DNA from: Nitrososphaerota archaeon
Lineage (GTDB): Archaea; Thermoproteota; Nitrososphaeria; Conexivisphaerales; UBA164
Length of the DNA: 64,000 nucleotides
Assembly: GCA_009903795.1 (NCBI GenBank)
Contig: WYER01000012.1
Location: forward strand, 40,549 to 104,548
Reading direction: 5' to 3'
In this document: positions 3,393 to 49,672 of the stretch, in pieces
Position numbering within the stretch: position 1 is the stretch's first letter
How the letters are laid out: every line of letters begins with the position of its first letter
Notes under the pieces: generated by a model
Databases searched by the model: none
What the model saw: only the letters and a program-made list of their open reading frames with translations
Told to the model about the DNA's origin: nothing
Position numbers and translations under genes: made by a program

Positions 3393-4178
3393 TTGCTTTT
3401 TGGAGGTAAAAATGATCAGATGAATATAGGTATAATAGGAATAGGTAATATGGGTTATGCCCTTAGCGTGGCGCTCTCAAAAAGTAAAGAAGATACTATA
3501 TTAGTTTACGACAGGGGTAAATATAAGGTTCCAAAAATAAAAAATATTAAACGTGCAAATAGCCTTATTGATCTAGTTAAAAGCTCAGATACGATATTTG
3601 TTTCAGTAAAGCCTAACGACGCAGAAAAACTTTTTGATGAAATTTCTTTAAACGTAGAAGGAAAAACGGTGGTTTCGGTTGTAGCTCTCTATCCATACAG
3701 CAAAATGGTAGAAAAAATGCCAAAAGCAAAAATATGTAAAATCATGACAAGCATAGCTGCAGAAACCGGAAAGGCACCTGTTCTTGCTTATTGTCAAAAA
3801 GAACTTTTTGAAAGCCTTAAAAGGTTATTAGAAAAGATAGGGGAACCTTATCTTTTTGATGAGAAAATTATTGATGCTTTAGTTCCAATAACAGGAAGTG
3901 GACCTGCAATAGTGGCCTATTTTCTCGATTCTTTATCTCAATATATGCTTCTTGCAGGAGTTGAAAAAGATTTAGCAGAAAGAATAACTAATCTGGTTAC
4001 CTACTCAACTTCCATCTATGCACTTAAAAAAGACGTTGATTATCGAACTCTTATAAAAAAAGTAGCTACTCCTTCAGGAATAACTATTAAGATCTTGCAG
4101 GAATTTGATAAAAGAACGTTAAAAGGCAATGTTGTAGATTCAATTTATTCAAAAATTAAAGAATATGTGAAATTATAG
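3393..4178 (+). CDS. proC: Pyrroline-5-carboxylate reductase
   Basis: Rossmann GIGNMGYAL; ITGSGPAIVAYFLDS; VATPSGITIKILQEF; true start may be the internal Met at 3420. Confidence 0.85.
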   Translation: MLFGGKNDQMNIGIIGIGNMGYALSVALSKSKEDTILVYDRGKYKVPKIKNIKRANSLIDLVKSSDTIFVSVKPNDAEKLFDEISLNVEGKTVVSVVALYPYSKMVEKMPKAKICKIMTSIAAETGKAPVLAYCQKELFESLKRLLEKIGEPYLFDEKIIDALVPITGSGPAIVAYFLDSLSQYMLLAGVEKDLAERITNLVTYSTSIYALKKDVDYRTLIKKVATPSGITIKILQEFDKRTLKGNVVDSIYSKIKEYVKL

Positions 4179-4180
4179 AG

Positions 4181-4293
4181 CGCCGGCACCGCTGCTTCGC
4201 GAGGGCTTGCGCACCTCACTAACACAGCGGCGGTGGTAGGTTTTACTTCCGGGTTCGGATGAGACCGGGTAGAACCCTACCCCTATGGCCGGC
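4181..4293 (-). rRNA. rrf: 5S ribosomal RNA
   Basis: Minus strand GCCGGCCATAGGGGTAGGGTTCTACCCGGTCTCATCCGAACCCGGAAGTAAAACCTACC...GCCGGCG, 5S core with pairing ends; GC-rich island, TATA-like tttataaaaaa upstream. Confidence 0.93.
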
Positions 4294-4363
4294 TTTGTAT
4301 GTTATGCTTCCTTTTTTTATAAACCTTTCTGACCATTTGTAATTTGCTTATGTTTTTTAGTTA

Positions 4364-49543: not shown

Positions 49544-49576
49544 ATGTATATAAATTTAGGGCAAAAAACAATTCAT

Positions 49577-49672
49577 GCGGGGGTCCCCTAGCCAGGTCGA
49601 TGGGGGCAGAAGATGCCTAAGCTCAAGACCTGCTGGCGTAGGCCTTCGTGGGTTCAAATCCCACCCCCCGCA
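49577..49672 (+). tRNA. tRNA-Leu(CAA) with 11-nt intron (49610-49620)
   Basis: Acceptor GCGGGGG/CCCCCGC, T arm GTGGG-TTCAAAT-CCCAC, long variable arm; anticodon stem GCAGG/CCTGC restored after removing AAGATGCCTAA; no CCA encoded. Confidence 0.93.

Follow-up and report, generated by a model that had tools for sequence, protein, structure and literature searches.

A short intron at position 30/31 of an archaeal tRNA-Leu(CAA) gene and its occurrence across families of Nitrososphaeria

An interrupted tRNA-Leu(CAA) gene

The window, a 64,000-nucleotide stretch of a genome of the class Nitrososphaeria (G000:C30:40549-104548; genome of 1.36 Mb in 33 contigs, 92.5% complete), holds a class II tRNA-Leu(CAA) gene whose 5′ anticodon stem is split by 11 nucleotides between positions 30 and 31 (Table 1). 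From its 5′ end, the gene reads GCGGGGG TC CCC TAGCCAGGTCGAT GGG G, then GCAG (49606-49609), the insert AAGATGCCTAA, a single G (49621), the loop CTCAAGA, and CCTGC. The 3′ part comprises a long variable arm followed by GTGGG TTCAAAT CCCAC CCCCCGC A. Upstream of the gene lies a TATA-like box, the ATATAA core of which is kept in four of four same-genus genomes. Elsewhere in the window, a 5S rRNA gene at 4178-4296 on the minus strand (83.6 bits) is the sole Rfam match at gathering level.

Table 1 Features of the tRNA-Leu(CAA) locus, in window coordinates
Feature	Position	Strand	Basis
tRNA-Leu(CAA) gene, class II, intron-bearing	49577..49672	+	Sequence read, ARAGORN
Exon 1, positions 1-30	49577..49609	+	Comparison with the Leu(UAA) paralogue (L036)
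11-nt intron AAGATGCCTAA, position 30/31	49610..49620	+	Sequence, orthologues, in silico splicing
Exon 2, from position 31 through discriminator A73	49621..49672	+	Anticodon CAA at 49624-49626
Predicted splicing helix, 5′ strand GGGC, in exon 1	49604..49607	+	
Predicted splicing helix, 3′ strand GCCT, in intron	49615..49618	+	Complementarity in 24/25 distinct introns
TATA-like box TATATAAATTTA	49547..49558	+	Centre ≈25 nt upstream of the tRNA 5′ end

Default ARAGORN sees no tRNA in the window, nor does Rfam at the gathering threshold, and in a whole-genome search the RF00005 model scores the gene at 18.8 bits, below threshold. Removal of the 11 nucleotides in silico restores the cloverleaf, and ARAGORN then calls tRNA-Leu(caa), where the unspliced gene yields no call. 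The missed call is not counted against the gene, because default ARAGORN likewise misses the intron-bearing orthologues until they are spliced. A sequence-only reading of this DNA had proposed an 11-nt intron at 30/31; its placement proved exact to the base, with the ARAGORN call on the spliced form behind it, and the perfect stem that it expected after removal (GCAGG-CTCAAGA-CCTGC) is borne out in the sequence.

The position, which is other than 37/38, was assigned by numbering and by comparison with the paralogue and with intron-less orthologues. Intron-less genes for tRNA-Leu(UAA), (CAG), (GAG), and (UAG) are all present in the genome. The Leu(UAA) paralogue (C1:50003-50087) is nearly identical to Leu(CAA) outside the anticodon arm, sharing the acceptor through position 26 and the variable arm and differing in the T arm at one loop base, so the insert in Leu(CAA) stands out directly. 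The T-arm pattern GGTTCRAATCC has 32 exact matches genome-wide, among which the Leu(CAA) gene alone falls outside the Rfam tRNA calls, and the pattern for the 3′ half of its anticodon arm occurs only once in the genome.

Distribution of the intron among Nitrososphaeria

When 401 class genomes were searched with a pattern that detects solely genes with a G-C-rich anticodon stem, 28 proved to have an intron at the same site of tRNA-Leu(CAA); they represent eight families and 14 genera, and the intron ranges from 11 to 29 nt. Within the genus, it occurs in the genome studied here and in three of four relatives, at 11 nt in each, the shortest length in the series; in two genomes of a sister genus it measures 28 and 29 nt, respectively, and in two other families of the order it is present in eight genomes at 11-19 nt. 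The six genomes of the order without the intron are 73-86% complete, so that absence there is not readable. In family f5, the Leu(CAA) orthologues L052-L055 and L064 lack an intron, and their anticodon stem is contiguous. A MAG of a Conexivisphaerales archaeon (L075), with 82% identity in HisD, has the same tRNA gene at the corresponding place, directly before hisD; the source genome thus most likely falls within the Conexivisphaerales (Nitrososphaeria, formerly Thaumarchaeota), consistent with the mention of TACK lineages in the sequence-only reading. Two further matches (G005, L108; G007, L111) are not tRNAs and were rejected. A phylum-wide search of 400 genomes, with a pattern specific for one stem sequence and therefore giving a lower bound, matched the source genome and one site outside any tRNA; the latter (G519, L163) was rejected as apparently protein-coding DNA with no tRNA arms around the match.

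These data bear on an alternative in which the tRNA is dead or an assembly error, the 11 nt are a random insertion, and UUG is decoded by another tRNA. Standard models do miss the gene, and an incomplete genome could be missing another copy. An insert at the same site in 28 genomes of the class, however, lies far beyond chance; these genes have almost unchanged acceptor, anticodon, and T-arm sequences and, as described below, a conserved helix register. A second intact Leu(CAA) gene, named beforehand in the sequence-only reading as the finding that would count against this one, was looked for genome-wide and not found at 92.5% completeness. We consider a dead gene very improbable. The intron is probably old: eight families of Nitrososphaeria have it, at lengths that decrease from 29 nt to a minimum of 11 nt.

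Splice motif and intron boundaries

In the archaeal bulge-helix-bulge, the endonuclease cuts two bases past a 4-bp helix on both sides. Among the 25 distinct introns at this site, 24 contain four bases that fully pair with the exon GGGC and end two bases before the 3′ splice site. The count of introns with such pairing at offsets 0, 1, 3, 4, and 5 is zero; the 4-bp helix between exon and intron at the center of the motif, with predicted cuts two bases past it on either side, is thus found at offset 2 only. Shuffled introns gave a mean of 0.51 with the pairing and a maximum of 5 in 20,000 trials, a descriptive contrast rather than a strict probability, as the introns are related. Column entropy is 0-0.9 bits in the four helix columns, versus ≈1.3-2.0 bits in the freely varying positions upstream of the helix. 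This pairing evidence is drawn from related sequences, and GGGC is invariant because the mature tRNA constrains it. The 31:39 pair, which spans the intron, varies in step on its two strands: family f1 has G-C there and the remaining families A-U, a difference that looks like one change rather than many.

The four-base-pair geometry corresponds to the core of the archaeal bulge-helix-bulge motif (PMC4090602). The strict hBHBh′ form is not found, as a 7-nt loop replaces the inner helix and the outer helix has at most 2 bp in register. At the 3′ bulge, this outer helix is weak (G49603-C49622, G49602-U49623) and in competition with the D stem. Judged by its sequence, the motif is of the relaxed bulge-helix-loop form, not the strict one, and the relaxed form is an accepted substrate type (PMC4090602, PMC12397907). 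Every element that the sequence-only reading had described here, from the GGGC:GCCT helix and 7-nt loop to AA^G, is present, and its relaxed classification holds at the sequence level. Minimum-energy folds are not cloverleaves for the precursor or for the mature form, and folding energy thus gives no independent support. An additional inner pair suggested by folding, A49608-U49614, is not part of the motif; it is missing in the 11-nt introns of G011, G151, and G192.

The register also bears on where the intron ends. With introns allowed, ARAGORN reports Leu(caa) with an 11-nt intron whose boundaries lie one base 3′ (49611-49621; agatgcctaag), which would favor a real intron with shifted ends. 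That placement, however, sets A31 opposite C39 as a mismatch and loses the two-base register common to 24/25 introns, whereas boundaries at 49610-49620 give both a perfect stem and the bulge-helix register. Because the first intron base is A and exon 2 opens with G, no shift of the boundaries keeps the mature stem perfect. Shifted ends are accordingly a highly unlikely alternative, and we retain the boundaries in Table 1.

Splicing endonuclease and ligase genes

Two genes exceed the cut-off for PF01974, at C8:14272-14505 (102 bits) and C14:3122-3355 (31 bits). The first encodes a 179-residue EndA alpha subunit that aligns over its length with EndA alpha of Aeropyrum pernix (3p1z_B; 137 bits, E = 5e-39), with the catalytic Tyr (DFAVY), His, and Lys (SVKKK) aligned. 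Its Lys39-Pro40-Lys41 lies opposite A. pernix Lys44-Pro45-Arg46 in the Crenarchaea-specific loop, and the conserved loop lysine (A. pernix Lys44) is therefore retained. We read 3ajv, which has Ala at the His position, as a catalytic-His mutant. The second gene encodes a 182-residue beta-type subunit that matches 1a79 and 3p1z_A and lacks an aligned Tyr and His. In NCBIfam, endA is above cut-off for the C8 gene and "subunit beta" below cut-off for the C14 gene. An RtcB ligase is also encoded.

The genome thus has the separate catalytic and structural subunit genes characteristic of an (alpha-beta)2 EndA. The Crenarchaea-specific loop confers broad specificity, for which the loop lysine is required (PMC6379350, PMC12397907). 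A heteromeric, broad-specificity endonuclease appears to be encoded, as the sequence-only reading had predicted, by an alpha gene with the lysine loop and a beta gene; from these sequences, we infer its assembly and activity.

Other interrupted or missing tRNA genes

Two further tRNAs, both outside the window, are hidden by introns. The gene that ARAGORN reports as tRNA-Val(AAC) at C1:55493-55578 (L025) is tRNA-Lys(UUU) with a 13-nt D-arm intron, TAG^ACGTGAGGCCTAA^AGC; spliced in silico, it is called Lys(ttt). By eye, this intron is present at 13-19 nt elsewhere in family f1 and in a single f2 genome and is absent in f3. At C6:2986-3075 (L076) lies tRNA-His(GUG) with a 17-nt T-loop intron, AGCATCCAAGCCGAAAC, which scores 21.4 bits in Rfam, is missed at threshold, and is called His(gtg) by ARAGORN once spliced. 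The genome also has anticodon-loop introns in tRNA Tyr, Trp, and Ser(CGA). No gene was found in it for tRNA-Phe(GAA), Gln(CUG), Ser(GCU), Pro(UGG), or Val(UAC), a gap that reflects either missing contigs or further hidden introns.

In two f13 genomes and one f17 genome, tRNA-Leu(CAA) itself carries three introns, located 5′ of the D stem, within the D arm, and at 30/31 and totaling 53 nt in L158 (G192), 52 nt in L159 (G151), and 50 nt in L148 (G279). When spliced, these genes are called Leu(caa) by ARAGORN.

Discussion

With high confidence, we interpret this gene as the working tRNA-Leu(CAA) of the genome, carrying at 30/31 a short, non-canonical intron of the archaeal type that EndA and RtcB would splice. 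In the proposed mechanism, the precursor would form a 4-bp helix between the exon GGGC and the intron GCCT, so that AG^A falls in the 7-nt terminal loop and AA^G occupies a bulge adjoining the weak outer helix. The (alpha-beta)2 endonuclease, with its lysine-loop alpha subunit, would cleave both strands at a distance of two bases 3′ from the helix; RtcB would ligate the exons into the perfect anticodon arm, giving the junction GCAG-GCTCAAGA in the spliced tRNA. Subunit assembly, expression, and the cleavage and ligation of this precursor are presumed. That the mature tRNA instead retains the insert and so has an enlarged anticodon arm is scarcely credible, given its length range of 11-29 nt, the free sequence of its 5′ part, the complementarity of the flanking stem across it, the endonuclease and ligase encoded, and two other tRNA genes in the genome with inserts that also need removal.

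A separate proposition is that the 30/31 intron is maintained because it serves a function and is not simply tolerated, on the basis of its occurrence in at least eight families and the 11-nt floor. We regard this as doubtful. If it were true, the floor could correspond to the minimum loop size acceptable to the endonuclease; alternatively, the intron could have a role in modification or protection of tRNA-Leu(CAA).

The intron is a case of ordinary archaeal tRNA splicing, of a well-known kind and with a mechanism that is not new. Position 30/31 is among the listed non-canonical intron positions (PMC4090602), and tRNAscan-SE 2.0 includes a covariance model dedicated to the introns of Thaumarchaeota, with 107 reported (PMC8450103); the novelty is below what the sequence-only reading had implied. 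In Caldiarchaeum, tRNA introns occur in the D, variable, and T arms (PMC3293823). No published description of a 30/31 intron in tRNA-Leu(CAA) of Conexivisphaerales was found in the literature searched. The modest added interest lies in a clade-wide series at one site, its 11-nt floor, and the two further hidden tRNAs. A tRNA apparently absent from a genome bin is present here, interrupted by a tiny intron, and tRNA counts used in archaeal completeness estimates will be underestimates where introns at unusual positions go unmodelled. The 25 distinct introns of 11-29 nt at one site also provide a natural series for testing the minimal substrate of the endonuclease.

Compared with the non-canonical introns of Crenarchaeota and Thaumarchaeota (PMC4090602, PMC8450103), the intron described here occupies the same listed position, has relaxed bulge-helix-bulge splice sites, likewise belongs to a lineage with heteromeric EndA, and is detected solely when introns are modelled. 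It differs only in its length of 11 nt, the shortest in the present series, and in its retention in a single tRNA species across eight families. The alpha subunit resembles that of the A. pernix (alpha-beta)2 endonuclease (PDB 3p1z, 3ajv) over its full length, including the loop and the catalytic His, and the beta subunit is matched as well; the subunits here, however, come from Nitrososphaeria, and the beta similarity is weak (22 bits to 3p1z_A). The split tRNA-Lys(CUU) genes of Nanoarchaeum equitans and Staphylothermus are broken at 30/31 (PMC4090602), the same point of the anticodon stem, whereas here one gene holds both halves, which would be joined by splicing in cis.
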